Assembly: GCA_022710685.1 (NCBI GenBank)
Contig: JAKLGM010000004.1
Coordinates: 1 to 54,557, forward strand
Source: Patescibacteria group bacterium
GTDB lineage: Bacteria; Patescibacteriota; Patescibacteriia; Patescibacteriales; UBA12465
Direction of reading: 5' to 3'
Length of the DNA stretch: 54,557 nucleotides
Each line of letters opens with the position of its first letter. Positions within the stretch are counted from its first letter, which is position 1. The notes below the pieces were generated by a model, which had not been told where the DNA came from, ran no database searches, and worked only from the letters and a program-made list of their open reading frames with translations. The position numbers and the translations under genes were made by a program. Positions 14,363 to 40,781 of this stretch are shown piece after piece.

Positions 14363-14391
14363 AACCTATCACAAATTATTATATTTGTCAA
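14363..14391 (-). promoter_or_regulatory. Promoter of the beta-propeller gene
   Basis: Minus strand TTGACA (14391-14386), 17-bp spacer ending in TGA, TAGGTT (14368-14363). The perfect -35 overlaps the TGA stop codon of the giant gene (14388-14390). Leader of ~46 bases. Confidence 0.6.
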
Positions 14392-17300: not shown

Positions 17301-20300
17301 CTGCTTCTGCAAAGTAAGGGTCGTGCCACCAGATGAAATCGTACCCGAACTCCAGCCATCGCCACTAATTCCATCACTATTAATATCACTCCAAGTTGGA
17401 TTTACTACAATATTTGGCGAGAATTCGCTTACCGGATCAATATATTCAGTACAAGCCGAGGCTTTGTATTCGCACAAACCGACATTACTGCTTGGTTGAT
17501 AAACTAAATTACCGCCGCCCAGACCAATAGTCTTCAAAGAATCAACCGGGCAAAGATAATCGTTCTTGTCCAAAATACATTTACCTAAACCGCAATCTTC
17601 ATCCTTAGTACAAAGCTTGTTCTGGGTCTCAATTATATTGCCAACTAAATCAACATTGATCCCTGGGTTAACATCCGGATCAAAATCGCAACGCTTCACC
17701 GGCTTCTTATACCATTTCTTCGGCAGGTTCATACCGCTGGCATTCAAAGACTGACGCCATTCGCAGACATTCTCGCCCGGATCCTTAAAGTAGCTAGGAG
17801 AGCCATCCAGATATTTCCATTCTTGGCAACCGACTTCACCCTCGCCGCAAAGAGTGGTGGCATATTTGTCCGGGTTATTCTTGACGTAAACATCTTGATA
17901 GATATTTTGGACAGAAACGTCAACGTTGGTGTTAACCTGGTCGCCTAAACGGCTACAGCCTTTATCCACGGCCGTACACTGATTTTTGACTTTGCCTTTA
18001 TTATTCTCATAACGGACATAGGCCATCCGGTCAGCCGGAATCTCAATACAATCCGGGCCATCGCTCGGGTCACAATTATTATCCGGGGTGCCATTTTCTT
18101 GATAGGCTTCCTGCTCGGGATTGGCCGAGTTGCCGGTAATAACCATCAATTCGCAACCAACCGCGTCATCAGTGCACAAATTGGTGAAGTTACGGAGATA
18201 GTTATAATTGTTAGAATTATCCGTATAGGATTCGCAACCAATATTATAGTTAATACCCTGATACTGGTCGAACATGTCATAGTAGCAAGAATTCGGAGTG
18301 GACCAGCTATCCTTAATTAGGTAGTAACGATCGCTAATTTCATTTAAAACTATATTATCCAACAAGACGTTGCCACTGGCGCTGATAATCAAAGCTTCCT
18401 GCTCAGTCACCTCATGGTCTAGAACGTCTAGGTTGGCCTGATAGACGCGCCATTCGCCATTACCGACTACGCTAACCGAAGAATTCTGTTCGCCGGTCTC
18501 AAATTGGGACGCCACAGAGCCATTGGCCAAATAGATGTTAATGCTAACATTGCTGTTGGCTTTAGCTAAGAATTTTACGGTGTAGGCCTTGCCCTGACTG
18601 ACATTATCAACATTGATGCCGATACCATGTCCTGGCAGAGCGGTGCTAGTCTGAGCTTTGACGCTCTTAATGATCTTCTGCCACAAACCCTTGACCGTGG
18701 CCAACACTTTGTTGGCGCCATGGCTATTGCTAGAAACGCTAACGGCCTCCAAATCAAAGTTGGGAACATTAGAACAATTGTTGCTAACAAAATTATATTG
18801 TAAAGAATGGCCATTACGATTAATGGAGTCGACATTCAAAGCGGAAGAATCGGCGCAATAACTGGCCCAGGCCTTATTGTCTTCAAAGCTAAAGCTCTCC
18901 ATAGACCGGACATTGTTGCCATAATTACCATTGTATTCGCGGCAACCATTTTCCGCCGCAGTACAAGTCAGACCCTCACCCGGAATAGCTTTGTAGATGC
19001 AGCCATTCTGGTTGCTGTCCCAAACGCCACGATTTTTACAAACATTACAGACACCATCCTGAGCATTCCAGTTCTTGTCCGAACCGGTACAAGCCGCCTG
19101 GCTCAAAGTTTCGTCTACCGGAGCTTCAGTCAAGCGATATGGGTGGCAGTTGTCAGCGCAAGTTATAGTAGTGGAATATAAAGCATAGAAAATAGCGCCG
19201 GCCTTATTATAGAATTGACGGCAATCAGAATTATAGGCCGCATCATTAGCCGGAGTATTATAGATAACTGGATCGCAAACGGTCACGCCGCCGTCAATCT
19301 GGTTGTTATTGCCGTCAAAAGATCCGGAAGTTAACACCGGCTTGTCATTAGACGCCTGAAGATTAAAGGGCTGTAATTGATAACCGGCAGTACCGATATT
19401 GCCCCAACTATAGAAAACGCCGCAAGCCGCTTCTTCCGGCTTCACGCATTGGCGCAGATAAGCATAATATTCCTTGGCTTCTCCGCCCTGAACCACTTCG
19501 TCTAAATTGGTAAACTCAGAACAGCCAGCCGCAACGGCCCGGCATTTTCTGGCAGTAGCAGGGATAAAGACGGCAGCCTGTTTGTAGTTAAAGACGCCTT
19601 CCTTCTGGACATAATAATCATAACCGACGCATTCGGAACGGCAAGCATCGGTCGCGGTAGTCTTGGCCGGAACTGAGAAATTATTTCTCACGGAAGTATA
19701 AAAATTACAACCGGCTTCTTCTCCGTTACATAAGCGGGCATAACCCAAGCATTTAGCCGGAGCCGTGCTCTTTAAACGGTAATCCGGATTCAAGCCGGTA
19801 GGATTAACATAGCAATCCGCCGCCAAATAATTCGGAATCAATTTTTGGTAAGCTAAGTTGGTAGTATAATAATCAGAATAAGTAGTGCCTTGTTTTGCCA
19901 TTTCCACCTTGACCCGGTCAATAACGCAAGCCGAGGAATTGACGGCAAAATAAATTTCATTGCTAGAAATATTGATCGGATAGTTATAGGATACGTAATA
20001 ATACTGCCAGTCTGGGCCAGAATATAACGGAGCCTCTCTGTCATCTACGGACGAAGCGCCCAATATCAAGCTATCGCCATCATTACAATCCTTAGCATAG
20101 AAAGAAACAGTATAAACCTGGCCGGCGATATTGTAGTCGTTGGGACCGACTGCTAAACGGCGCTTGAATGGCTCGCTTAATTTCAGGGCGATATTGCTGA
20201 AATAGCCCGGGGAGGTAGTGGTAGCATTATTCGGAGCCACTACTCCGGCCAAATCAATATTGTTAGTCCAATCGCCGGAACTTAAATCACCCTCCATGTC

Positions 20301-22484
20301 GCCATTATGGATGAAGTTATGGCCGGCATCAGGCTGGATGCGGATAAACTCGTTACAGCCTTCTACCTTCTTGTCGCAAGTTTCTACTTTTTTAGAAAAA
20401 TAAATCTGCTGCAGCGGCGCCCAAGCCACCTTGTCAGTGCTAGTGGTATAAGTGCCATAGCTGGAATAGGGGCGGCAACCCGCATTATCAGAAGTACAGG
20501 TGCTATAGTCTAAAGTATTTTCCAGATAGGAAGCTATCTTGCCGTTTGGTTTGACAAAATTCTGGCAAGTATTGAAAACTGCATCGCAAGAGTCTGAATC
20601 AAAATCCCAGGTCCGTTTTTCTTCAGTACAATAGCCATAAGCTTCGCAGGTGCCGTCAGTCTTTTCTTTAATACAGCTTTGTTCATCAGCACAGTAATCC
20701 GGATTGCGGGTAATAATTACCTGGCCCGGAATCGTCTGGGTGCTAATACCGCCATTGCCATCATCGGTCTCAATTTTTTGTTCCGGCACCAAAGTCTTTT
20801 CTAAAATCTGACCGCCGGCACCTTGGCGCTTACAATAATTCAAAGGGGCTTTCAAAACCCAGTTCGGGTCAACTAATCCTTGGCACCAAGCCGCTGGGGT
20901 AAAGCCTTGGCTGAAATCATTATAATTATCATCAGGATCAAAGCAGGAAACCATATCCAACATGGTAACGTTGACGTTGTTCTCTTCCGCCTTTAACAAA
21001 GCAGTTTCCCAACCGACCGGAATGATACGGAATTTTCGCAGGATCAAAAGGTTGCGCAAAGAATAACCTTGGTTATAATCAACGTCCCGTTTTAAGCGCC
21101 AATTCTTCTGCAAGAATCCTTCATTCAAAGCTTCGGCCACAGTCTTCCGATCTTCAATGCCCTGACGGAATTGGTCATCAATCACGCAATTAGTCGCTCC
21201 CATATTCTGCGGATCCGGACAAGTCGCTAAATCGCCCAAAATACTATAATCACCGCGCGTATCAAATTTAGGCTGGATGACTTGAGAGAGATTAGCCTGG
21301 ACCGAAGACATGCCCTTGAAACTGTTAGGATCGCAGTTAGGATCATCCAAACAAGGTGCGCCGCTATTAGTGGTGGCAACGCTCACCGGTTCGCATTTGC
21401 ATTCTTCATTACAAGTATAGCCCGAAGCGCACTTAGATTGATTTTGATCACCGCCTTCCACGTCGCATTTGTTGAGCGGCGTACGATCGCAAACCGTATA
21501 AGTACCGTTAAACCAATCCTGAAAATATTCATCATTGATAGCCGCTTTGTCAGCGCTATAAAGACCTAAAGTCAAAGCCGACAATGCCGCATTCGGATTG
21601 CCGGATAATAATTTCGCTTTAGCTTTATTAAAAGCCGTAATGGCTAATTGGTTCAAAAAGACGTTGGCCGCATCCACTAATGTATCGCCGGTAAACTTAC
21701 CGACGTTCTGCATCAATGAGGCATCAGCCTGCTTCTTCTGTTCTTCCGCTTCACCCGGAGCGCCTTTTAACTTGCCGCCGATATCGCGGACATCCAGCCA
21801 GCCTTTTTTGGCACTCAATTCCTCCTGCGATTTGTTGTAAGCAGTAGAGGTTGATTCTTTCAAGCCGCTCATCACTGTCAAAGCCATATTGACGCCATTG
21901 CCGGTAGGATCAAACATCGTGCTCAAGTCCTTCAAGAACGTCGGGCTGCGCATGGAAGCATATTTTTCATTGATATCATCTTTCCAAGCCTTAGTCATCT
22001 TGCTGAAGGTACAATAGGCATCCTTCGGACGGCTATACCCAGCTGCGTCAACCAAGCCCAAGCCGATGCTTAGTTTGACATTCAAATCGGGTTCGCAAAA
22101 ATTTACTCCAGCCGCCTGGGCATACTGATCGATAAAATCACCAGCCGCATTGTCAGCAATATCTTCCAGATAAGAGCCCCAGCCTTTTTCCACGAATAAT
22201 GGCTTCTGACCTTCGCCGCCGGAACCGATATAGGTGGCCGTATCATAGGCTATCTTATTCAAGGCTTTGGTAACCGCTGATTTCAAAGCCTTAGACCCCA
22301 CTTTAGTGATGGCGTCTTTCAACTTAGTCTTCAACTGGGTCCAAATACCCATAAAGACGCCAGTCGGACCGCCGATGACGTCTTGAGATTGGGCCTTGCT
22401 GGCCGGGATGAGAGAGAAAACAAAAACCAAAACTAGTACAAACGATACTATTTTGGAATAATGAAAATGGCTTGGCTTTTTCAT
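14388..22484 (-). CDS. Giant exported cysteine-rich modular protein (~2,698 aa)
   Basis: Not a recognised family as a whole. Starting at the ATG at 22484 (an in-frame TTG at 22511 would only add nine residues), it has a signal peptide ending near PASKAQ, a helical N-terminal region of ~300 residues, then a long region with roughly 100 cysteines in total. At least a dozen copies of a short motif C-x(5,6)-[GA]-C-x-x-[FYWL] recur between ~15535 and 20515. Four beta-sandwich, carbohydrate-binding-like modules are interspersed (about 19895-20335, 18335-18905, 17035-17420, 16075-16571), and the C-terminus has an Ig/PKD-like segment followed by a compact EGF-like knot. The product is probably a disulfide-stabilised surface or secreted structure, perhaps an adhesin. 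The helical N-terminal region resembles, from memory, proteins near type IV secretion genes in this radiation. Preceded by a thrombospondin-3 gene, probably cotranscribed. Confidence 0.8.
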   Translation of the reverse strand: MKKPSHFHYSKIVSFVLVLVFVFSLIPASKAQSQDVIGGPTGVFMGIWTQLKTKLKDAITKVGSKALKSAVTKALNKIAYDTATYIGSGGEGQKPLFVEKGWGSYLEDIADNAAGDFIDQYAQAAGVNFCEPDLNVKLSIGLGLVDAAGYSRPKDAYCTFSKMTKAWKDDINEKYASMRSPTFLKDLSTMFDPTGNGVNMALTVMSGLKESTSTAYNKSQEELSAKKGWLDVRDIGGKLKGAPGEAEEQKKQADASLMQNVGKFTGDTLVDAANVFLNQLAITAFNKAKAKLLSGNPNAALSALTLGLYSADKAAINDEYFQDWFNGTYTVCDRTPLNKCDVEGGDQNQSKCASGYTCNEECKCEPVSVATTNSGAPCLDDPNCDPNSFKGMSSVQANLSQVIQPKFDTRGDYSILGDLATCPDPQNMGATNCVIDDQFRQGIEDRKTVAEALNEGFLQKNWRLKRDVDYNQGYSLRNLLILRKFRIIPVGWETALLKAEENNVNVTMLDMVSCFDPDDNYNDFSQGFTPAAWCQGLVDPNWVLKAPLNYCKRQGAGGQILEKTLVPEQKIETDDGNGGISTQTIPGQVIITRNPDYCADEQSCIKEKTDGTCEAYGYCTEEKRTWDFDSDSCDAVFNTCQNFVKPNGKIASYLENTLDYSTCTSDNAGCRPYSSYGTYTTSTDKVAWAPLQQIYFSKKVETCDKKVEGCNEFIRIQPDAGHNFIHNGDMEGDLSSGDWTNNIDLAGVVAPNNATTTSPGYFSNIALKLSEPFKRRLAVGPNDYNIAGQVYTVSFYAKDCNDGDSLILGASSVDDREAPLYSGPDWQYYYVSYNYPINISSNEIYFAVNSSACVIDRVKVEMAKQGTTYSDYYTTNLAYQKLIPNYLAADCYVNPTGLNPDYRLKSTAPAKCLGYARLCNGEEAGCNFYTSVRNNFSVPAKTTATDACRSECVGYDYYVQKEGVFNYKQAAVFIPATARKCRAVAAGCSEFTNLDEVVQGGEAKEYYAYLRQCVKPEEAACGVFYSWGNIGTAGYQLQPFNLQASNDKPVLTSGSFDGNNNQIDGGVTVCDPVIYNTPANDAAYNSDCRQFYNKAGAIFYALYSTTITCADNCHPYRLTEAPVDETLSQAACTGSDKNWNAQDGVCNVCKNRGVWDSNQNGCIYKAIPGEGLTCTAAENGCREYNGNYGNNVRSMESFSFEDNKAWASYCADSSALNVDSINRNGHSLQYNFVSNNCSNVPNFDLEAVSVSSNSHGANKVLATVKGLWQKIIKSVKAQTSTALPGHGIGINVDNVSQGKAYTVKFLAKANSNVSINIYLANGSVASQFETGEQNSSVSVVGNGEWRVYQANLDVLDHEVTEQEALIISASGNVLLDNIVLNEISDRYYLIKDSWSTPNSCYYDMFDQYQGINYNIGCESYTDNSNNYNYLRNFTNLCTDDAVGCELMVITGNSANPEQEAYQENGTPDNNCDPSDGPDCIEIPADRMAYVRYENNKGKVKNQCTAVDKGCSRLGDQVNTNVDVSVQNIYQDVYVKNNPDKYATTLCGEGEVGCQEWKYLDGSPSYFKDPGENVCEWRQSLNASGMNLPKKWYKKPVKRCDFDPDVNPGINVDLVGNIIETQNKLCTKDEDCGLGKCILDKNDYLCPVDSLKTIGLGGGNLVYQPSSNVGLCEYKASACTEYIDPVSEFSPNIVVNPTWSDINSDGISGDGWSSGTISSGGTTLTLQKQDVYLLKNKLYSLSVETTASITPVILNCPASIRQLQADNSFAPATNQIVIGASAPNTNILFSSLNNTSCTLYGGANGKKINIRGTVVDYRLSSKVDKQSCNGEVNFDNGCILFNERRQEGANGLVKSNWRAYGGSYSAGLPATCDPLVDSTCDSNVLIKVQPNRICSRWLACMSIGIDPNTGEETCYALGECDKLNDFGRCQSFIKNDEVQHTFNSGADRNISGYSKLDYYYLSNMSEVGEDPNMHWDFENGPDFPGSGVYNSPGTWTTWNSSNANAYIMSDSSELIPSTTISYPAHGKGLLMIDRDQPYSSGGVVIRASYPFKQGRQYYINFLVNIDDSNGKGASVLAEPSTGSNFGWMYITSGSGWQRKVYKFVPQANFNDLNIILSAGSGSASIGNEVYFDDINIEPVLEVADNSYIAKECRLYPKQDSLTCKSAAESVVSNGIYGYCLEHDPKNPDVCLMWYPIENVKSSQASTGASSGFSSIYGDSYYCAEMSTNFEFTERRSAFLLTAVDDSNNGCSFWSGFQGQQDCPTGYERFVMRWHREGNNKCSTDYYCIPMGQGIGVLAMCDPNDASANIGDTAGCASYYTNPQYTNSTWPSWNTSNAYVAGGSYTGGPGGWDAWILVNSAGYYQYNGTSGHSHDSEVGTNLIDRDDNPPLGTFKLSSSFTPKCTKFLKMDKPWVQRLTSFTATTSPFFTGAMNNYNRSLDKAPYGSSGNDYVPGYQVGSGAGKAGWPYSCNNGGQLNAGVDMCKYVSTNLSVNALVQGPYGHSGTFTYPASNLKQIFLKGSGVSGYSYDCMAGINCSGSIPPCNGNGSARASSCLSNPVPGNTCFCGVYPTIYNIKVRNSEGLEIVPVNGLYPINTSDFYTVSFGVDIDSEQLPVGELFVDFDDNGNGNVTTTQIDPSTNYRFIHYYNPQGANQQYQIRIKAVDNWGFYKCAGLASTCPDTAGCCSAGFTGLNCAGCIY
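15535..20515 (-). repeat. Short cysteine-pair repeats within the giant protein
   Basis: Encoded copies include (by position) CTSDNAGCRPY (~20490), CDKKVEGCNEF (~20360), CRAVAAGCSEF (~19530), CVKPEEAACGVF (~19430), CTAAENGCREY (~18950), CTDDAVGCEL (~18160), CTAVDKGCSRL (~17960), CGEGEVGCQEW (~17840), CEYKASACTEY (~17460) and CNGEVNFDNGCILF (~16990). The common form is C, five or six residues, G or A, C, two residues, aromatic or large aliphatic. Spacing between copies is irregular because beta-sandwich modules are inserted among them. Confidence 0.75.
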
Positions 22485-22513
22485 GTTATTTAAATTGATA
22501 TTTATAAACAAAT

Positions 22514-27926: not shown

Positions 27927-27955
27927 ATTATAATTTAATCAGCCTTTTTTAGCAA
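27927..27955 (-). promoter_or_regulatory. Promoter of ldt-xth-leuS
   Basis: Minus strand TTGCTA (27955-27950), 17-bp spacer, perfect TATAAT (27932-27927). It overlaps the oppositely directed promoter at 27915-27923, so the two probably compete for polymerase. Confidence 0.65.
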
Positions 27956-28683
27956 TGGCTCTAGAAGATAGAATCGCCGTTTTACGGCAGAAATTAGCTA
28001 ATCCGCCGCACCCTCATTGGTATAAAACCTGGTGGGGAGTTTTGATGTCTCTCCTCTTGTTTTTTCTAATCAGTTTTATCCTGGCTAGCGCCGCCTATGT
28101 TTTCAAAACTGCCAGTGACATTAACAACAACCAGAACTCTTTGGCCTTGTTAGAAAAAACCCAGCAAGAGCGCGCCATCATTGAAGGCCAAAACAATTAT
28201 TACCTTGGCACCACTTCTCCTAAAGTGGTGATTATAGAATTTTCCGATTTTGCCTGCCCCTACTGCAAAGCCAGCCATGAAGCTGTCCGAGAGTTAGGGC
28301 TGAAATACAAGAACGAAATCAAAATTATCTACCGCGACTTTTTGGGCCACAGCAACTCCCTGGACCTGGCTTTAGCCGGACGCTGTGCCGGCGAGCAGAA
28401 TAAATTCTGGGCCATGCACGACAAACTATTTTTGAATCAAGACAATATAACCCTGAGTTCTTTACCTATCCTAGCGCAACAGATAGGCGTCAGCACCAGC
28501 ACTTTTAATAATTGCCTTAAATCGCAAAAATACCTGCCCTACATCCAAGCTGATATGGCAGCAGCCGAAAAGATGAAAATCACCGCTACTCCCACCTGGA
28601 TCATCAACGGTTATCTGGTAAAAGGAACTCTAGACCGAGATGGCCTGGACAGCATTATAAAAGAAATATTAAACATTAAATAA
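27955..28683 (+). CDS. Membrane-anchored DsbA-like thiol oxidoreductase
   Basis: A 242-residue protein: short cytoplasmic part, one membrane helix (~29-50), then a thioredoxin-fold DsbA-type domain outside the cell. The active site is CPYC (101-104, in FSDFACPYC) and the cis-proline loop is TATPTW (~212-217), as in the BdbD/DsbA_4 group that introduces disulfides into exported proteins. It leads the operon that also holds a cysteine-rich pilin-like protein and a cysteine-containing hydrolase-peptidase fusion, which are plausible substrates, and the giant cysteine-rich protein is a few genes away. The por gamma gene starts 1 bp after its stop. No DsbB-like partner is seen in the window. Confidence 0.88.
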   Translation: MALEDRIAVLRQKLANPPHPHWYKTWWGVLMSLLLFFLISFILASAAYVFKTASDINNNQNSLALLEKTQQERAIIEGQNNYYLGTTSPKVVIIEFSDFACPYCKASHEAVRELGLKYKNEIKIIYRDFLGHSNSLDLALAGRCAGEQNKFWAMHDKLFLNQDNITLSSLPILAQQIGVSTSTFNNCLKSQKYLPYIQADMAAAEKMKITATPTWIINGYLVKGTLDRDGLDSIIKEILNIK

Positions 28684-28684
28684 T

Positions 28685-29263
28685 ATGATTCAAATTCGTC
28701 TCCACGGCCGTGGCGGTCAAGGCGTTGTTACCGGCGCTGAACTTATAGCTCTCAGCGCATTTGACCAAGGCCTCTACGCCCAAGCCTTGCCGGCTTTTGG
28801 CGTAGAAAGAAGTGGCGCTCCGATCCAGGCTTTCGCCCGCATCAGCCCCGAGCCAATCATCGTCCGCGAACATATCTACGAACCTGATTTTATCATCATC
28901 CAGGACGCCAGCTTGTTAGCCGTCACTGATGTTTTGTTCGGCGCCAATAAAAAAACTATCATTATCGTTAACACCAGCCAAGGCGCTAAAACCATGGCCG
29001 CCCAAATTAAACAGCAAAAGATCCAGAGCTTCATTCCGACCGAAAAACAGATAAAAACCATCGATGCTACAAAAATCGCGCTAGCTATACTGGGACAAAA
29101 TCTAATGAATACTGTCATTCTCGGAGCTTTTGCCCATATCAGCGGCTTGATTAATATCAAGTCTTTGAATCAAGCTATCGCCGCAAAATTCGCCAGCAAG
29201 GGCGAGGCAATAATCAGTAAAAATCAAAAGGCCGCTGATGCTGCCTATAATCAACTAGCCTAA
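28685..29263 (+). CDS. porC: Pyruvate/2-oxoacid:ferredoxin oxidoreductase, gamma subunit
   Basis: The 192-residue gamma subunit of the four-subunit enzyme that oxidises a 2-oxoacid (probably pyruvate) to acyl-CoA and CO2 and reduces ferredoxin. It opens with IRLHGRGGQGVVTGAELIA and continues with PAFGVERSGAPIQAFARIS, both signatures of the POR gamma fold that helps bind CoA. Order in the operon is gamma, delta, alpha, (two unrelated genes), beta. It starts 1 bp after the dsbA-like stop. Confidence 0.92.
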   Translation: MIQIRLHGRGGQGVVTGAELIALSAFDQGLYAQALPAFGVERSGAPIQAFARISPEPIIVREHIYEPDFIIIQDASLLAVTDVLFGANKKTIIIVNTSQGAKTMAAQIKQQKIQSFIPTEKQIKTIDATKIALAILGQNLMNTVILGAFAHISGLINIKSLNQAIAAKFASKGEAIISKNQKAADAAYNQLA

Positions 29264-29269
29264 AATCAT

Positions 29270-29533
29270 ATGGCCAAATCTTTAATTGTTAAACCAAACT
29301 CTGCTCTTAAAAATAAGACCGGATCTTGGCGCACTTTCCGGCCCGAAATTCTTTTAGACGCTTGCATCGGCTGCGGCACCTGCGCCAAAGTCTGCCCCGA
29401 AGGCACTATCGCCTTGGCTAAAATCAATGGCCAGACTAAGGCTCGCATCAACTACGACTATTGCAAGGGCTGTGGCATCTGCGCCGCCGAATGCCCGGTC
29501 AAGGCTATAATCATGAAACCGGAAACAAAATAA
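29270..29533 (+). CDS. porD: Pyruvate/2-oxoacid:ferredoxin oxidoreductase, delta subunit (2[4Fe-4S] ferredoxin)
   Basis: An 87-residue ferredoxin-like subunit with two complete cluster motifs, CIGCGTCAKVCPEG and CKGCGICAAECPVK (CxxCxxCxxxCP each), carrying electrons from the TPP site to free ferredoxin. The N-terminal ~30 residues (SLIVKPNSALKNKTGSWRTFRP) are the usual POR delta leader that docks on the other subunits. Spaced 6 bp from gamma and 4 bp from alpha. Confidence 0.93.
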   Translation: MAKSLIVKPNSALKNKTGSWRTFRPEILLDACIGCGTCAKVCPEGTIALAKINGQTKARINYDYCKGCGICAAECPVKAIIMKPETK

Positions 29534-29537
29534 AAAT

Positions 29538-30719
29538 ATGAAGCAAAATAAAAAATTACAAATTTTAGAAGGTTCCCGCGCTATCGCTTTAACTGTTAAA
29601 AACATTGAACCAGGTGTAGTCTCAGCCTACCCCATCACCCCGCAAACCCATATAGTGGAAGATTTAGCCAAGTTTCAGGCTGACGGCCAAGCTAATTACC
29701 AATATGTCAGGGCGGAAAGTGAGTTCGCCGCCGCCTCAATCATCTTAGGCGCCAGCGCCGCGGGCGAGAGAGTCTATAGCGCTACCAGCTCCCAGGGCTT
29801 GCTCTTAATGGCAGAGGTTCTCTTTAATATTTCCGGCTTGCGCTTGCCGATAGTAATGACCGACGCTAACCGCTCTATCTCCGGACCGATTAACATCTGG
29901 AATGACCACCAGGATGCTATGGTGATAAGGGACAGCGGCTGGATAATGCTGTTTGCCGAGAACCACCAGGAAGCCGTTGCACAGCATATCATGGCCTATA
30001 AAATTGCCGAGAGCACCAAACTGCCGGTCATGGTCAACGTAGATGGCTTCATCCTGACCCATTCCTATGAACCGGTTTGGATTCCAGAAAAAAAATTAAT
30101 CCAAAAATATTTAGGCAAATATAAACCGGCCCGAGGCACCTATCTAGACCCCCAAAATCCGGTTACCTTGGGCGCTTTTGTCTCCCCTAATGACTACATG
30201 GAAATCAGGCAGGAACTACATGAGGATTTGGTCAAAAGTCAGAAGACCATTGACCAAGAATATCATAATTACCAAAAACTATTTCACCAGACTAAAACTA
30301 AAAACCAAGATACTGACAACGGTCTCCTGGAATATGTCGGACCAGTCAAGCCCCAAGCAATTATTGTCGCTATGGGTTCAATGCTCGGGACTATGCGCGC
30401 AGCTATCAAAGAGAACAAGCTAGAAAAGAAAATCGGCCTGCTCAAAATCCGCTGCTATCGCCCTTTCCCGCGCCTAGCTGTCCAAAGAATCATTAGCCGC
30501 TCCAAGAATATCGCTATAGTGGAAAAAGCTATCAGTTTAGGCCAGGAAGGACCGCTGACTTTAGACATCAAATCCTTGCCAAACAGGCCCCATAACATCA
30601 AAAACTACATCGTCGGCCTGGGCGGACGGGACGTGACTAGAGGGGTGATAAAAAAGATAATAAATGATATAATGAAGCCAGGGACAAAACCCGAAAAAAG
30701 CCAATTTATTAGCGCTTAA
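29538..30719 (+). CDS. porA: Pyruvate/2-oxoacid:ferredoxin oxidoreductase, alpha subunit
   Basis: A 393-residue subunit forming the pyrimidine-binding side of the TPP site. Recognisable segments are the N-terminal SAYPITPQTHIVEDLA, RAESEFAAASIILGASAAGER, YSATSSQGLLLMAEVLF, RSISGPINIWNDHQD and the VNVDGFILTHSYEPV stretch, followed by the C-terminal domain that contacts CoA (GLLKIRCYRPFP). The next gene in the complex (beta) is not adjacent: two membrane protein genes intervene, which is unusual. Confidence 0.93.
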   Translation: MKQNKKLQILEGSRAIALTVKNIEPGVVSAYPITPQTHIVEDLAKFQADGQANYQYVRAESEFAAASIILGASAAGERVYSATSSQGLLLMAEVLFNISGLRLPIVMTDANRSISGPINIWNDHQDAMVIRDSGWIMLFAENHQEAVAQHIMAYKIAESTKLPVMVNVDGFILTHSYEPVWIPEKKLIQKYLGKYKPARGTYLDPQNPVTLGAFVSPNDYMEIRQELHEDLVKSQKTIDQEYHNYQKLFHQTKTKNQDTDNGLLEYVGPVKPQAIIVAMGSMLGTMRAAIKENKLEKKIGLLKIRCYRPFPRLAVQRIISRSKNIAIVEKAISLGQEGPLTLDIKSLPNRPHNIKNYIVGLGGRDVTRGVIKKIINDIMKPGTKPEKSQFISA

Positions 30720-30723
30720 AAAT

Positions 30724-30882
30724 ATGCATAAAACACATTTCAAATTAAAAACCAAGAAGGAATTAAAGACGGCTGATCAACCAATAATTCTAAGAGGGTG
30801 GCCAGAGTTTTTTGTTATCGTCTTCATTCTGACCTTCGTCATCCAATTATTACTCCTTATCTTGATGAATTGGAAATTCTAA
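30724..30882 (+). CDS. Small single-span membrane protein (52 aa)
   Basis: ATG at 30724 lies 4 bp after the porA stop and the frame closes at TAA 30880-30882. The first ~30 residues are basic and hydrophilic (MHKTHFKLKTKKELK...), then RGWPEFF leads into one long hydrophobic helix (VIVFILTFVIQLLLLILM) ending NWKF. Positive-inside charge suggests the N-terminus stays in the cytoplasm. I do not recognise a family. Tight spacing on both sides within the operon supports its being a gene; it may act with the pilin-like protein that follows. Confidence 0.55.
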   Translation: MHKTHFKLKTKKELKTADQPIILRGWPEFFVIVFILTFVIQLLLLILMNWKF

Positions 30883-30912
30883 GCTTTGTTTCAAAAAATA
30901 ATTCAAATATTT

Positions 30913-32175
30913 ATGAAGAGATTTTTATTTAAATACAAAAAGCTGGTCCTGGGATTTTTCTTGGTTGCTGTCCTAGCTTTGATATTAGCTGCTCCGGCTC
31001 TAGCCCAAGATGACGACGAAGAAGTAACGCCAGTAAAATTTAATCCACAAGTGACAATTCCGGGATCTATCTTCAAATCCGGCGGATCGGTATTACTAGA
31101 AAATAACACGGCGCCAATCGCCAAATATATCAGCGCTATCTACAACTACGGTGTCTCTATCGTCGGCATTTTAGCATCCCTGATGCTCATGATTGGCGGC
31201 ATTATATGGCTCACCGCCGCCGGCTCCAGCAGCAAGATAGAACAAGCCAAGGAATTCATTTTTAGCAGTTTGACCGGCATGGCTCTTCTGTTAGTGGCCG
31301 TCATTCTGCTCCGCACTATTAACCCAGCGCTCGTAGAATTCCGCAACCCAACTCTCACGACTATTGACAAAGTAGATCCCTGCTGTAATTCCCTGCGCGG
31401 ACCGACGTTTGAGGTAACTGTAACCCAAACGCCGGAAAGATTAATCTATAATTGCGCCCCGCCCAAAGAATTAGACGGCGATGATGCTGAGGTAGAAAAA
31501 TGTACGGGTAAATCTAAATGCCAAATTTCTCCCGAAAGCACCGAAACCGCCCCTAAATACGGCTGCGTTGACCCAGATCGATATACTTGCTGTGAATATG
31601 AGTCTGACATAGGTGACGACGAAGAGTCTCTGTTTAGCTGTATGTCAGTTGAATCTGCTAAAGGCGAAACCTGTCCTACACCAGCAGAAAAAGGAATGGG
31701 CATGGTAACTTACTCTTCTAACAGGCAAATTGAAAAATATTATTGCCAGACAGGCGTAATTGTCGGATTGAAGGTAAACGGCTGTAAGGTAGATTGCAAT
31801 GGCAAAGACAAAGGAGAACTTTGCAATGGCTTGTCAGACGGCGGCCGCTGTTATGGCACTGACGACCTTTTGACTTGTCGCTTTGGCGGCGCCAGAAAAT
31901 CCCTAGGAGATATCTGCGGCAACACTGACGCTACAACCAGATGCATGCCCGGCGGCTATAGCGTCTGGTCAGGTGATCTTTTTGAGGGTCACTGCGATGA
32001 CAGTCGTTGTTTGGATCACGATAACACCGTCACTAGCGGCGAAGAATGCGACGCCGACGGCGAAACTGAACTAGCCTGCTGTTATTTTGCGCCAGACGAA
32101 GGCTATCTATCTTCTTGTTCTGAAAAAGATATATACAAAAAATGGTATCCAAAAGAAACCGGCACTGCTAACTAA
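30913..32175 (+). CDS. T4SS_pilin-type membrane protein with cysteine-rich outer domain
   Basis: Start chosen at ATG 30913 because a signal peptide begins there (MKRFLFKYKK, hydrophobic core, APALAQ cleavage region ~27-32); a TTG at 30886 would add nine residues. The 420-residue product then has the double-helix T4SS_pilin (VirB2/TrbC-like) module at ~65-142: KYISAIYNYGVSIVGILAS, MLMIGGIIWLTAAG, then FSSLTGMALLLVAVILLRTINP. The remaining ~270 residues hold about 24 cysteines, including CC pairs (PCCNS, TCCEY, ACCYF), and no known fold that I can name. Typical VirB2 pilins are ~100 residues with no such domain. It may be a membrane scaffold for a disulfide-rich outer module. It sits between por alpha and beta. 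Confidence 0.75.
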   Translation: MKRFLFKYKKLVLGFFLVAVLALILAAPALAQDDDEEVTPVKFNPQVTIPGSIFKSGGSVLLENNTAPIAKYISAIYNYGVSIVGILASLMLMIGGIIWLTAAGSSSKIEQAKEFIFSSLTGMALLLVAVILLRTINPALVEFRNPTLTTIDKVDPCCNSLRGPTFEVTVTQTPERLIYNCAPPKELDGDDAEVEKCTGKSKCQISPESTETAPKYGCVDPDRYTCCEYESDIGDDEESLFSCMSVESAKGETCPTPAEKGMGMVTYSSNRQIEKYYCQTGVIVGLKVNGCKVDCNGKDKGELCNGLSDGGRCYGTDDLLTCRFGGARKSLGDICGNTDATTRCMPGGYSVWSGDLFEGHCDDSRCLDHDNTVTSGEECDADGETELACCYFAPDEGYLSSCSEKDIYKKWYPKETGTAN

Positions 32176-32194
32176 AGCTAATCGTATCAACTCT

Positions 32195-33100
32195 GTGACT
32201 AATCTAACAAACATTTCATCCGGGCATAATGCCTGCGCTGGCTGCGGCCAATTGGTGGCGGTTCAGGCGGTAATGCGCGCTCTGGATAAAAATACTATCC
32301 TGACTAACGCTACCGGCTGTCTAGAAGTTACCACTACTGCCTATCCCAATAGCGCCTGGGGTTTGCCTTGGCTTCACTCCTTGTTTGAAAACTCCAGCGC
32401 TTTAGCTTCCGGCGTTAGAGCTGCTCTCAACCAGCAAAATAAGAAAAATATAAAAGTCGTAGCTCAAGGCGGCGACGGCGCTACCTACGATATCGGCATC
32501 GGGCTGATTAGCGGCATGTGGGAAAGAGGCGATAATGTCCTCTATATCTGCTATGACACCGAGGCTTATTCCAATACTGGCATCCAAGCTTCCGGCTCCA
32601 CCCCTTATGGTGCTTCCACCACCACCTCTCCCAATAGTGAATGTGGAGAAAATAAATCATGCCCGCTCTCTCCCGGCACCAGACAAAACAAAAAAGACAT
32701 GATCGGTATTGCTCTAGCCCATAATCTAAAATATGTGGCTCAAAGCACGGCCGGCTTTCCAGATGACATTACCAATAAAGTAAAAAAAGCCCTCTCAATT
32801 GAAGGCCCAAGTTATATTCAAATTTTGTCCCCTTGCGTTCCAGGTTGGAAAATCGGCCTAAACCAGGCGGTTAAACTAGGAAAACTGGCGGTCCAAACCG
32901 GCCTTTATCCCTTGTTGGAATATGAGAATGGCAAACTAGTTAACAAATCCAACATACCCCAGCCGCAACCAGCTGTCACGGAATATCTAGAAGCCCAAGG
33001 CCGCTTCAAACACCTATTTAAAGAAGAACGTTATCAATCTGATTTAAAGCATATCCAGAATTTAGCTGACGAGAATATCGCTAAATACGACTTGAAATAA
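32195..33100 (+). CDS. porB: Pyruvate/2-oxoacid:ferredoxin oxidoreductase, beta subunit
   Basis: The TPP- and [4Fe-4S]-binding subunit. I use the GTG at 32195 (301 residues): an in-frame ATG at 32087 lies inside the preceding gene and would add 36 residues unlike any beta subunit, whereas the GTG start puts HNACAGCGQ near the N-terminus as in the family. Cluster cysteines are CAGC, GCLEV and PCVPGW; TPP/Mg binding is GGDGATYDIGIGLISG; YDTEAYSNTGIQASGSTP is characteristic of pyruvate-specific enzymes. Together with alpha, gamma and delta it gives a complete oxidoreductase that would feed acetyl-CoA to the ADP-forming synthetase at 40786-42813. Confidence 0.9.
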   Translation: MTNLTNISSGHNACAGCGQLVAVQAVMRALDKNTILTNATGCLEVTTTAYPNSAWGLPWLHSLFENSSALASGVRAALNQQNKKNIKVVAQGGDGATYDIGIGLISGMWERGDNVLYICYDTEAYSNTGIQASGSTPYGASTTTSPNSECGENKSCPLSPGTRQNKKDMIGIALAHNLKYVAQSTAGFPDDITNKVKKALSIEGPSYIQILSPCVPGWKIGLNQAVKLGKLAVQTGLYPLLEYENGKLVNKSNIPQPQPAVTEYLEAQGRFKHLFKEERYQSDLKHIQNLADENIAKYDLK

Positions 33101-33106
33101 ACTAAA

Positions 33107-34837
33107 ATGGAAAAGAAAAACAAAAAAGCCTACTTCTACACTGGAAGAATATTATTATTTTTCTTGTTTTTTTTGTTGGCAGCAAGGCCTACTCAGGCCG
33201 CAACCATCACAGCCGATGGCCAGGTTGACTGCCCCTCAGTAACACCAACAGAAATTTTGGTTTATTTCCATGGTTTAGTTTGGCCAACAAGCACCCAAAA
33301 TGGAGACCAGTGGACAGTGCAAGAAAGCATTAGCACTTTTTATACCGAACTTAATAAAATAAGAGCGTCTCGTCCTGGAGTTGCCGCTGCCCACTACAGC
33401 TATGGCGCCAACGCTCAAGCGGCAATCAACAACGTTAGATCTCAGTGCAATATATCCGGAGTCCTGCCCATAACTCTAGCCGGCCATAGCGCTGGTGGCA
33501 GCTCTCTGAAATCAGCCGGGGCAATCGCCGACAAGATAATAATACTAGATGGTATTTACTGGTCACCAACCCCGCTTTATAGTTATTGCTCTAAAATAAG
33601 GCTAGTGGATGGATACTCCACTCAAAGCAACACCACCCCCCTAGTAACAGAGTGCAGCGGTAATGCTAGTTTTAAATACGTAAAATACCAAGATATTGGA
33701 AACCCTGGCCATTTTGCTATCAGAAAATACTTGAGTACTTTTTATTTGGACTCTGAAATAACTGCGGGCGGAACAGCCGGAGCAACAACAAAGCCTAAAA
33801 AGCCATTTGAACTATTCAATCCACTCTTAGACCTGCAAGTCAATATCCCCGGGATAGAAAAATTAGCCTCAGAAACTCCGGCGGCCTGCACTACCAGCGA
33901 TGACAACATTACGTCTTGCTCTCTCCCCTGGATTTCTGTCTATATCAAGGCAATATATAATTATTCCATGAGCATCGTAGGAATCTTAGCTGCTTTTGTG
34001 ATAATGATTGGGGGAGTTATTTATCTAACATCTACTGGCAATGCCAATCGGATTAAGAGCGCGCAATCCTGGATTACTGGCGGACTGACCGGACTGTTAA
34101 TAATGTTTACCTCCTATGTACTCCTAAACGAAATTAATCCGGACCTTATTAAATCTAATCCGATAGACCTACAGATTGTTCGAGATGAATTTGTACAAGA
34201 TCCGAATGATATAAATCTTGGAGATCTGCCTGTAGGCTCAGGCGCCGGATCTGGTGAAGTCTTAAATGATGGAGTTCCTTTTTTTAACCAATGTAATGCT
34301 TCTTGGAGAGATTTTCCTTACGACGGTAAATCCCCCTATCAGTGCGGCGGCGGAGATCCAGGATACTCAGTCGACGGCGCCAAAGTAAAAGGAAACACTC
34401 TATGCTCCTCGTCTTGCGGAGTAAATAGTGCTGCTATGGTATTAAAATATTATGGGTATGAAGTTACTCCTCCTCTTTTGGCTAATTGGTTAGTCGACAA
34501 TAAATATAGAGGTACAAATGGCACTTGTTCAGGAACATCCTTCCAGGGTATACAAGATGTTATTAAAAACTATGGACCCGATATAAAAAGTGAGTATGTC
34601 AAAGCAAATAATTATGTCGCGGCGTTACAGGCTGGTAAAAAGATAATATACTTAATGAGGGGGCCGTGTCCATTAAAAAAAAGTCAAGGTGGCCACTATG
34701 TAGTTTTAACTGGCGTAAAAACCGGATCCGGTAACTCTATTATTAATATTAATGATCCATTCAGAGGCCAAAGAAAACAAGCCAGCACAAGCGATATAAA
34801 TACTTGTTGGGCTGGGGGCATGGCTTTTTATCAATAA
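33107..34837 (+). CDS. Fusion: alpha/beta-hydrolase-like domain + T4SS_pilin segment + C39-like peptidase
   Basis: A 576-residue exported protein with three parts. After a signal peptide or anchor (~13-31) comes an alpha/beta-hydrolase-like region (~45-215) with VYFHG (oxyanion loop), nucleophile elbow GHSAGG (Ser128), candidate acid Asp148 or Asp168 and NPGH (His202). Next is a T4SS_pilin double-helix module (~275-345: YIKAIYNYSMSIVGILAA, GGVIYLTSTGN, GGLTGLLIMFTSYVLLNEINP). Last is a papain-like C39 domain (~385-576) with SSCGVNSAAM (Cys437), GGHYVVLTG (His530) and NDPF (Asp550). It is last in the operon and ends 1 bp from the convergent rnhA. Plausibly a cell-surface hydrolase or wall or peptide processing enzyme held by the pilin-type anchor. 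I know of no described protein with this order of domains. Confidence 0.8.
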   Translation: MEKKNKKAYFYTGRILLFFLFFLLAARPTQAATITADGQVDCPSVTPTEILVYFHGLVWPTSTQNGDQWTVQESISTFYTELNKIRASRPGVAAAHYSYGANAQAAINNVRSQCNISGVLPITLAGHSAGGSSLKSAGAIADKIIILDGIYWSPTPLYSYCSKIRLVDGYSTQSNTTPLVTECSGNASFKYVKYQDIGNPGHFAIRKYLSTFYLDSEITAGGTAGATTKPKKPFELFNPLLDLQVNIPGIEKLASETPAACTTSDDNITSCSLPWISVYIKAIYNYSMSIVGILAAFVIMIGGVIYLTSTGNANRIKSAQSWITGGLTGLLIMFTSYVLLNEINPDLIKSNPIDLQIVRDEFVQDPNDINLGDLPVGSGAGSGEVLNDGVPFFNQCNASWRDFPYDGKSPYQCGGGDPGYSVDGAKVKGNTLCSSSCGVNSAAMVLKYYGYEVTPPLLANWLVDNKYRGTNGTCSGTSFQGIQDVIKNYGPDIKSEYVKANNYVAALQAGKKIIYLMRGPCPLKKSQGGHYVVLTGVKTGSGNSIININDPFRGQRKQASTSDINTCWAGGMAFYQ

Positions 34838-34838
34838 A

Positions 34839-35249
34839 TTATACACCCCGATCCATGGCCTCATTGGCCAGAGCATCAGCCGCAGCATTGAATTCGCGGC
34901 GGATGTGAGTGTAAGATATTTTTTTGAAGCTTAAAGATAAATTGTGAATCTCTAAAAACAAGGGCGCCAAGTCCTTGTTTTTTACTTTATACTCCCGTTT
35001 CAACTGCTTGACGACTAACTCACTATCAAGATAGAAATCTAATTCCTGCCCACCCAACTCTTTAGCCTTTTTCAAAGCGGCGATAACCGCCTTATACTCA
35101 GCTTGATTGTTAGTCACCACGCCTAAAAACTCCGAAATCTTGTCGATTACTTCCTTTTTGCCATTATAAATCACCACGCCCAAACCTCCAGGTCCAGGAT
35201 TGCCGCGGGCGCCGCCGTCAGTATAGATAATCAGTTTTTCATTGCTCAT
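34839..35249 (-). CDS. rnhA: Ribonuclease HI
   Basis: Degrades RNA in RNA-DNA hybrids (R-loops, Okazaki primers). The 136-residue protein has the complete catalytic set: YTDGGARGNPGPGG (first Asp), NNQAEYKAV (Glu), YLDSELVVKQL (Asp) and the C-terminal NAAADALANEA (Asp). Length and motifs match the short bacterial/archaeal form without a hybrid-binding domain. Lies 6 bp downstream of recJ, with which it forms a DNA repair and replication pair, and converges with the operon ending at 34837 with a single base between stop codons. Confidence 0.95.
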   Translation of the reverse strand: MSNEKLIIYTDGGARGNPGPGGLGVVIYNGKKEVIDKISEFLGVVTNNQAEYKAVIAALKKAKELGGQELDFYLDSELVVKQLKREYKVKNKDLAPLFLEIHNLSLSFKKISYTHIRREFNAAADALANEAMDRGV

Positions 35250-39137: not shown

Positions 39138-40781
39138 CTATATACCCCGGACTTCGCCCTGGTCTCCCACTTTGACCTTGCGCCAGGACAATTTGCGCTT
39201 AATAAGTCCGGAAAAATCATAGAATTCCTCGCTCCGGAGCAAGGCGCAAACCAAGAGATAGACGATGGCGCCAAAAATAGCCGCGACCGTACCCTGAGTC
39301 AAAACGCCGGAGAAAGTAGTCATATCAATATAAGGCCAAACCAGATTTTTCATGAGTTGGACCATGAAGCCAGCAGCCAAGCCAGCAACGGAAAATTTAA
39401 GGGCAGACGATAATATCTTGGCTTGGTCCAGATTGCCAACCTGGAAATAAAGGGCCAGCCATAATAAGATAAAGTTCAAGATAGTGGACAGCGAGAAGGC
39501 TAAAGCAAGGCCGGCAACACCCAATCGCGGGGCGAGCCAGAGCGATAGGAAGATATTGATAATCACCACAATGATACCGATGATAAAAGGGGTACGAGAG
39601 TCTTGCCGGGCATAAAACACTCTAGTCTGGAGCGGGATAATGGCTTGAGCAAATAAACTCAAAGCAAAGAATCCTAAAGAATCCATAGTCAAAACCGTAT
39701 CCTCCCAATCAAAAGAACCGGTGCCTAAGATGATACGGATAATCTGGGCGCGCAAGGTAATCAAAAGAACTGTCGCCGGAATGATAAAGAAGAGTATTTG
39801 CCTGGTCGCCGAAGAAAAATGTCCGATCATTTTTTTGTCATCCTTAGCTGCGGCAGCTAAGGCCGGAAAAGCGGCGACTGCAAAAGAGATGCCAAAGATG
39901 CCGACCGGAAATGACTGCAGATTATTGGCGAAGTTAAAGACGGACAAAGAACCGCTGGCTAGCTCGGAAGCGATAACTGTAATAACCACCAAATTAATCT
40001 GGGATATTGCCAGGCTCAATGTCCGCGGAACCATCATCCGCGCAATCTTCGCCAAATTTTTATTTCTCCAATCAACAAAAAGGCGATAGCGGAAGCCAAA
40101 ATTATAAACGGTCGGTAATTGGACCAACATATGCAGGAAGGCGCCGGCCACCACACCCCAGGCTAAACCAGATATTCCCATAAACGGCACTAGCCATAAA
40201 GCGCCAACAATAATACCGACATTATACATGATCGGGGCTAACGAATAGATTAAAAAACTCTTGAAAGATTGCAAAATACCACCTAATATACCCGATATTC
40301 CCAAAAACAACGGCGACAGGAACATGATTCTAGTCAAAACCACTGTGGTTGACTGGGCGGCCGGAGAAAAGCCAGGAGATATCAGCCGAACCAAACCTGG
40401 AGCGAAAATAATACCCACAATGCTCAGGGCGGCTAATACCAATAAAAATATATTTAAGAGATTATTAGCCAGGTCCCAGGCCTCTTGATTCAAATATTTA
40501 AACAAACCGACGCTCTTGTAGCTTTTGAAATCTTTAATTAGCCCGGTAAAAACCGGAATAAACCCAGCCGATAAAGCACCCAAGACTAGAAGATTATAAA
40601 TCAAATCCGGTAAACGGAAAGCGCTATAATAGATATCCAAAGATTCACCGGCGCCAAATTGGCCCGCTAAGATACGATCGCGGATCACTCCCAGAAAACG
40701 CGACAGCAAAGAAGAAACGCCGACCAGCGCGGCGGCAATCGTAATACTGTTAGTTTGACGGCTGAATAAACGATTAAACAT
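39138..40781 (-). CDS. murJ: Lipid II flippase MurJ (MviN family)
   Basis: Flips the undecaprenyl-linked peptidoglycan precursor across the membrane. The 547-residue protein has 14 predicted membrane segments and the MviN start: SRFLGVIRDRILAGQFGAGESLDIYYSAFRLPDLIYNLLVLGALSAGFIPVF in broken form, with conserved Arg and Asp residues in the central cavity helices (RIMFLSPLFLGISGILGGILQ). Length is standard. Located 4 bp after the acetyl-CoA synthetase gene and probably cotranscribed with it. With MltG, MurE-like and the L,D-transpeptidase it shows that this organism makes peptidoglycan. Confidence 0.92.
   Translation of the reverse strand: MFNRLFSRQTNSITIAAALVGVSSLLSRFLGVIRDRILAGQFGAGESLDIYYSAFRLPDLIYNLLVLGALSAGFIPVFTGLIKDFKSYKSVGLFKYLNQEAWDLANNLLNIFLLVLAALSIVGIIFAPGLVRLISPGFSPAAQSTTVVLTRIMFLSPLFLGISGILGGILQSFKSFLIYSLAPIMYNVGIIVGALWLVPFMGISGLAWGVVAGAFLHMLVQLPTVYNFGFRYRLFVDWRNKNLAKIARMMVPRTLSLAISQINLVVITVIASELASGSLSVFNFANNLQSFPVGIFGISFAVAAFPALAAAAKDDKKMIGHFSSATRQILFFIIPATVLLITLRAQIIRIILGTGSFDWEDTVLTMDSLGFFALSLFAQAIIPLQTRVFYARQDSRTPFIIGIIVVIINIFLSLWLAPRLGVAGLALAFSLSTILNFILLWLALYFQVGNLDQAKILSSALKFSVAGLAAGFMVQLMKNLVWPYIDMTTFSGVLTQGTVAAIFGAIVYLLVCALLRSEEFYDFSGLIKRKLSWRKVKVGDQGEVRGI

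Follow-up and report, generated by a model that had tools for sequence, protein, structure and literature searches.

VirB2-like pilins have been described in Patescibacteria, where, according to the accessible part of a survey of the phylum, they occur as tandem pairs or arrays in the company of few VirB1 homologues, and the same part of the survey concludes that pilus biogenesis seems not to need VirB1 (PMC12102498). These T4SS_pilin proteins are two-helix hairpins, and both the hairpin and the tandem arrangement recur at the locus reported here, but the hairpin studied here is fused to large outer enzymes, and a fusion of pilin and hydrolase is not mentioned in the accessible part of PMC12102498. 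The membrane-anchored VirB1 enzymes of Gram-positive T4SS, such as PrgK and TraG of pIP501, share with our protein the membrane anchor, outward-facing wall enzymes and often two catalytic domains, as far as the available sections of PMC12857230 describe them. They carry SLT, CHAP, MUR or LytM heads and are encoded in T4SS loci, whereas our protein combines a C39 head and an esterase-like domain with a VirB2-type hairpin and is encoded in a por cluster, in which no other virB-type genes were recognised. Since both head and locus differ in this way, we propose a VirB1-like function and not VirB1 membership. Modular type IV pilins such as PilB of Streptococcus sanguinis carry exchangeable functional modules on a pilin, some of them with peptidase domains, in the account given by the accessible text of PMC8179133, and this idea is common to both systems; PilB-type pilins have a class III signal peptide and a single N-terminal helix, however, and represent another pilin fold and machine. 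The first-pass annotation of the DNA had called the combination of two catalytic domains and a pilin-like module unfamiliar from described proteins, and no report of such a protein, or of the gene position it occupies, was found in the literature searched either, of which the coverage is thin for subscription journals and preprints.

The gene is located at positions 33107 to 34837 on the forward (+) strand of the window, i.e., of the whole 54,557-nucleotide stretch of DNA that was analysed, and forms a single open frame with an ATG start. The ORF and its Pfam matches define a 576-aa protein composed of a signal peptide, an alpha/beta-hydrolase-like domain, a pilin-like hairpin and a C39-like peptidase domain, and the three modules previously assigned to one frame do lie in one uninterrupted ORF. 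In a script check all residues named in the first-pass annotation were found where it had placed them; of the three catalytic triads it spoke of, at most two are present. The signal peptide (residues 1-31, 33107..33199, +, with an approximate cleavage boundary) is indicated in sequence and hydropathy by a hydrophobic stretch at residues 8-26. Hydropathy also predicts TM segments at residues 290-308 and 322-340, separated by a short stretch (311-321) with Arg315 and Lys317. As two TM segments follow the signal peptide and Arg315 and Lys317 lie between them, both outer domains should be non-cytoplasmic, provided that the signal peptide works. The predicted topology with the hydrolase-like and the C39 domain on the outer side of the hairpin agrees with the earlier view of two catalytic-type domains flanking a pilin-like membrane module. 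The protein contains 12 non-catalytic cysteines, and their even number in each outer segment (four in the front domain, two before the hairpin and six besides Cys437 in the C39 part) fits with disulfides and with a DsbA neighbour. The full-length AlphaFold model referred to below was computed from seven alignment rows and has a mean pLDDT of 49.2.

The window belongs to a genome of 885,608 bases in 36 contigs (89% complete), and the nearest named relatives found were Candidatus Falkowbacteria MAGs (L040, L041). The first gene of the conserved cluster (27955..28683, +) encodes a membrane-anchored DsbA-like thioredoxin, as judged by Pfam (Thioredoxin_4, CPYC) and hydropathy. It is followed on the same strand by three genes that we take, from their sequences, to encode the porG-like subunit of a 2-oxoacid:ferredoxin oxidoreductase (28685..29263), a porD-like ferredoxin subunit (29270..29533) and a porA-like subunit (29538..30719). 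Next comes a hairpin gene at 30886..32175 (+, ATG at 30913), a position designated slot 1, and then an ORF presumably for the porB-like subunit (32087..33100, +); the true porB start probably lies inside this ORF, since the slot-1 gene ends only within it. The slot-1 protein has a signal peptide, a pilin hairpin with a T4SS_pilin score of 30.2 bits, above the cut-off of 26.6, and 24 cysteines after the hairpin, which bears out the previous description of a neighbour with a T4SS_pilin hairpin and a Cys-rich outer domain and identifies a conserved partner gene. The gene of the 576-aa protein occupies slot 2, after porB, and a convergent gene that we assume to be RNase H-like (34839..35249, −) forms the right-hand border of the cluster. 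The window also contains what we take to be murJ (39138-40781), the presence of which indicates that the cell makes peptidoglycan. Elsewhere in the window, 14388-22511 forms a 2707-aa ORF with a signal-like start, and fragments of its relatives are found near leuS-side genes in several family loci.

A match was found in 36 of the 39 genomes of the same GTDB family (own included), and 38 stretches taken from relatives were compared. The gene order in the family is dsbA, porG, (porD), porA, hairpin gene, porB, hairpin gene, convergent RNase H, recJ, lepA and murJ. In all 28 family loci showing both porA and porB, one or two hairpin genes lie directly between them (script count), and the order dsbA-porG-porA is kept in 28 of the 29 loci showing dsbA and porA. 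A hairpin gene after porB and before the convergent RNase H gene was present in 20 of the 27 loci with both borders and missing from the other seven. An oxidoreductase operon interleaved with pilin-hairpin genes is thus seen at 27955-33100 and at every family locus with porA and porB. All 36 slot-1 proteins scanned (window included) matched T4SS_pilin, none of them matched a Pfam wall enzyme at E<=0.01, and the mean number of cysteines after the hairpin was 18 (35 proteins). Slot 1 may not be wholly enzyme-free, because the slot-1 proteins of L070 and L076 carry the CHYGG domain described below. Outside the family, L042 has dsbA and two hairpin genes that no por gene separates, and in L044 (Magasanikbacteria) a DsbA-like gene precedes a hairpin gene with a tail that is CHAP-like by eye. 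Among 40 further class loci, picked by hairpin score, a same-strand DsbA-like gene lies within two genes of the hairpin in 15 and within five genes in 20. The porA of G005 (L041:951-3152) encodes 733 aa, compared to 393 aa in the window, and has an insert of ~300 aa that is intein-like by eye (Cys start, VHN-C end).

The hairpin of the 576-aa protein (33929..34135, +; helices 275-308 and 313-343) was assigned from a Pfam match below the cut-off, from the model and from its 75% identity to the module of the sister genome G004. Residues 275-340 scored 19.4 bits against T4SS_pilin (PF18895), below the curated cut-off of 26.6, and the G004 orthologue scored 26.6 bits, exactly on the cut-off, for which reason we call the module pilin-like only. 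Hydropathy and the full-length model, in which both helices reach a pLDDT of about 81-86, agree on a two-helix hairpin after the signal peptide, as in T4SS_pilin proteins. The double helix formerly described as VirB2/TrbC-like is therefore well predicted as a hairpin, while its Pfam score falls short of the family. The length of 576 aa and the two outer domains argue against a plain major pilin. The low score, together with the best structural match, which is the F0 c-subunit hairpin 1a91 (Z 6.7, rmsd 3.3, 75 residues), would also suit a generic two-TM anchor with neither pilin ancestry nor pilin assembly. We regard this as possible but doubtful, as T4SS_pilin matched 58 of 63 proteins of the wider class (62 hairpin proteins from 40 loci and the window's; best match 8.5e-13) in addition to all of the slot-1 proteins, and a small VirB2-like array is present in the same genome. 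This array consists of six small tandem ORFs (126-162 aa) on contig C36 of the window's own genome, G000 (L083:5323-8190), and the hairpin query matched at least five places in it. A P-loop TraG-type ATPase ORF is located on a different contig (C23) of this genome.

The N-terminal domain (residues 32-219, 33200..33763, +) is a probable alpha/beta hydrolase on the basis of AlphaFold models and VIA-align searches. Ser128 (33488-33490, +) is part of a GHSAGG elbow (residues 126-131), Asp168 (33608-33610, +) in RLVDGYST (165-172) is a candidate acid and His202 (33710-33712, +) is found in PGHFAI (200-205). A putative triad could be completed by Asp168 or Asp148 and by His202, with the model having a pLDDT near 30 from about residue 150 on. 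The full-length model places GHSAGG between a strand (122-127) and a helix (128-137), as in a GxSxG elbow. The single-sequence model of the domain (mean pLDDT 50.9, blocks up to 86) comprises the model elements strand 18-24, strand 61-67, helix 72-82 and strand 91-96 leading into the elbow, and the full-length model repeats the same core with blocks up to 89. Both runs yielded a beta-alpha-beta-alpha-beta-elbow-alpha-beta succession with Ser128 at the elbow and the last third of the domain unmodelled. Alpha/beta hydrolases topped both aligner lists for this domain: with the single-sequence model carboxylesterase PA3859 (3cn7) gave Z 6.9, rmsd 3.5 and 102 residues, and with the full-length model Z 6.5, rmsd 3.1 and 99 residues, and monoglyceride lipase 3jw8 gave Z 6.6, rmsd 5.9 and 135 residues or Z 6.5, rmsd 3.4 and 100 residues, respectively, with all VIA-align Z scores of the domain below 8 and hence in the range that the tool itself calls unreliable. 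The lists also contain integrin I domains, receiver domains and caspases, and Foldseek returned nothing at E<=0.001 for either model (top rows KaiC, carboxylesterase 1auo and unrelated entries).

Pfam gave no match to this domain even at E 10, which means that the label hydrolase rests on motif and fold; the domain is hydrolase-like and a member of no named Pfam family. PDB sequences contained nothing convincing (best serine hydrolase 1vkh, E 0.66), and no convincing relative was found in PHROGs, IMG/VR or phages. Among 379 genomes of the phylum, the window itself excepted, no match was better than E 0.003, and four weak hits had E values of 0.004-0.007 (frames of 122-874 aa, two with stops). 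The earlier proposal of an alpha/beta hydrolase thus holds for the elbow with Ser128, a plausible His202 and the fold core in two models, and finds no counterpart in a Pfam family or a homologue. The same lack of relatives could mean that the domain is no active hydrolase and instead a binding or decayed domain, or that the gene is an assembly chimera. We consider this somewhat unlikely in view of the position of Ser128 at the elbow of a strand-helix core in both AlphaFold runs and of the hydrolases heading both aligner lists, and a chimera is disfavoured by the single open frame between porB and the RNase H gene, as in G004. The esterase-like domain is absent from G004 and G007, and the contig-cut G005 protein has a Cys-rich front that, by eye, does not resemble it; from these sequences the domain seems to have been gained in the window's lineage.

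The Peptidase_C39_2 domain (PF13529; residues 390-551, 34274..34759, +) was recognised by Pfam with an E value of 2.4e-12 and 48.1 bits, compared to a curated cut-off of 24. When eight diverse C39 domains of Patescibacteria were aligned, no more than six columns proved invariant, among them those of Cys437 (SSCGVN, 34415-34417, +), His530 (GGHYVV, 34694-34696, +) and Asp550 (NINDPF, 34754-34756, +), the set named in the first-pass annotation and conserved in 8/8 domains. Gln395 in FFNQC precedes Cys437 (script check), and the Cys/His/Asp set with a Gln in front is common to Peptidase_C39_2 proteins and the window's domain. Judged by its sequence, the assignment as a C39-like cysteine peptidase is solid; in the full-length model this part has a pLDDT below 52 per ten-residue block, and the order of helices and strands alone fits C39. 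No close viral or phage relative was found (two weak phage records, E 0.003 and 0.01), and a comparison with plasmids gave three Enterocloster C39 peptidases and two others at E 2e-4 to 0.02. Among the C39 relatives examined in Patescibacteria, the hairpin occurs in L098, L099 and L108 only and the hydrolase in none, so that, of the three-module order for which a survey had been proposed, the hairpin/C39 part is found elsewhere and the hydrolase part is restricted to the window's protein among the C39 relatives examined. The L098, L099 and L108 fusions of pilin hairpin and C39 belong to other Patescibacteria families and are smaller than the window's protein.

The slot-2 proteins of the family were scanned with Pfam (24 besides the window's, with L047 and L082, which are cut by contig ends, left out). 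A wall-type domain was present in 15 of the 24 at E<=0.01 and in 20 at E<=0.1, five of these at E 0.01-0.1 only; seven exceeded the curated cut-off and four had no wall domain. The heads are of the types C39_2 (two, plus the window), VanY/M15, NlpC/P60, SLT or SLT_3, and 3D. On a tree of lepA, recJ and porB with 23 rows, 21 of them labelled with six types, the head type changed at least nine times, compared to five changes if each of the six types had arisen once. The tree is of a quick kind (L055 covers 19% of the columns; L047, L075, L081 and L082 are not in it), and the labels were assigned by hand from the Pfam scans, those of L056, L058, L059, L061 and L073 on E values of 0.02-0.05 and CHYGG by eye; L048 and L074 were omitted from the count. 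Close sisters can carry different heads, as in G012 (M15) and G010 (NlpC/P60). The presence of different wall-cutting enzymes at the same gene position of relatives suggests an exchangeable wall-cutting tool.

Exchange has also occurred within the label C39. The hairpins of the window and G004 are 75% identical but their C39 heads only 32%, whereas the G004 head is 61% identical to that of G007 and 54% to that of G241, although the hairpin identities of these pairs are 54% and 49%, respectively; the window's head was therefore replaced. At the DNA level, the flanking genes and some short weak matches aside, the window gene and the G004 gene resemble each other in the hairpin region only. The C39 part has a GC3 of 0.306, a value that only 3 of 546 equal-length segments match or undercut, but this is no proof of recent import, since the GC3 of the older C39 in G004 is low as well (0.335). 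Base composition as an argument for horizontal import of the C39 part is suggestive only.

Fusions of a pilin hairpin with a wall enzyme are common in the wider class, and the window's protein is consequently one member of a large modular set. Pfam tallies among the 63 proteins were SLT (6), Amidase_2 (4), C39_2 (4, window included), M15_4 (3), GDSL esterase (2), and lysozyme, M23 and 3D (one each). In L154 and L176 the GDSL esterase lies behind the pilin hairpin (Pfam), with 3D-like and SLT-like stretches by eye, so that an esterase paired with a wall enzyme is seen again there. L160 has M15_4, a hairpin and an NlpC-like tail, i.e., two enzymes flanking a pilin; the tail is shared with L170 at E 2e-11 and matches the NlpC set weakly in a profile comparison (probability 61). 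A further domain with SISD, CHYGG, A-[VI]-D and HxH motifs, which has no Pfam name and is LAS-metallopeptidase-like by eye only, is present at the C-termini of the hairpin proteins L052, L058, L059, L063, L070, L076, L158 and L173. Its identification as a VanY/LAS metallopeptidase (H...D...HxH) was rejected, as the profile match to the VanY set (E 0.015) lies at a different place, and a vany-nl profile match was merely the tail of the shared hairpin.

We consider it fairly probable that the 576-aa protein is a Sec-exported, membrane-anchored envelope hydrolase in which a VirB2-type hairpin carries outer esterase/lipase-like and C39 enzymes, encoded in a slot with exchanged heads; most likely it is a membrane-tethered peptidoglycan hydrolase with an added esterase-like domain. 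The signal peptide would direct Sec export, and the two-helix hairpin would serve as a conserved membrane module for docking. The C39 head would then most likely cut peptide bonds of adjacent peptidoglycan, in the cell's own or a foreign wall, like the domains that replace it in relatives, and the front alpha/beta-fold domain, a probable esterase or lipase, may remove ester-linked groups or lipids. We infer peptidoglycan as the substrate from the company that the C39 head keeps, i.e., VanY/M15, NlpC/P60, SLT and 3D in the same slot. An enzyme pair acting on surface peptides, wall material or pilin partners had been envisaged before, and these replacing heads point to wall material. Slot 2 would keep the hairpin while its wall-cutting head is exchanged between lineages, and the slot-1 protein would carry no enzyme on the same hairpin but an outer domain rich in cysteines. 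The membrane-anchored DsbA encoded at the cluster head would oxidise the even cysteine sets and is the likely disulfide source for both hairpin proteins. The VirB1-like job of such a protein might be local opening of the wall for a surface machine or a contact site.

A more far-reaching version, in which the slot-2 proteins are pilin subunits with exchangeable wall-cutting heads that form a short surface structure together with the Cys-rich pilin of slot 1, i.e., the VirB1 job fused onto VirB2, appears speculative and somewhat improbable; the window's protein would be its extreme form, one subunit attacking acyl and peptide bonds by means of the added esterase. It is unlikely that the enzymes are the tool of an epibiont that opens a host or prey cell, wall as well as lipids, and not its own wall: hosts have been suggested as the target of Patescibacteria phospholipases and lytic transglycosylases (PMC11665869, in its accessible part) and the heads change fast, as expected with changing hosts, but the two TM segments anchor the protein and no release signal was seen. 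C39-type domains are also known to process leader peptides and other proteins. That the window's domain is a processing protease for exported peptides or for the Cys-rich partner in slot 1, in the way that ABC-exporter C39 domains trim leader peptides, is quite unlikely: the ABC-exporter family Peptidase_C39 does match (37 bits, cut-off 22) and slot 1 always adjoins, but the NHLM exporter model matches at E 0.14 only, none of the cluster genes was recognised as an ABC exporter, and VanY, NlpC/P60 and SLT in the same slot of relatives are no leader-processing domains.

Read as a membrane-tethered wall hydrolase, the protein and its relatives, with a fixed slot, a kept hairpin and five kinds of wall enzyme swapped on it, provide a concrete link between VirB2-type proteins and peptidoglycan cutting in Patescibacteria. 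Wall hydrolases are mostly missing according to a T4SS survey, and the slot-2 heads are candidates for them. The slot-2 proteins would also place a second, independent example of modular pilins next to the type IV pilins. The hairpin genes are constantly interleaved with a pyruvate-type oxidoreductase operon and a DsbA gene, which marks the cluster as an operon of its own.
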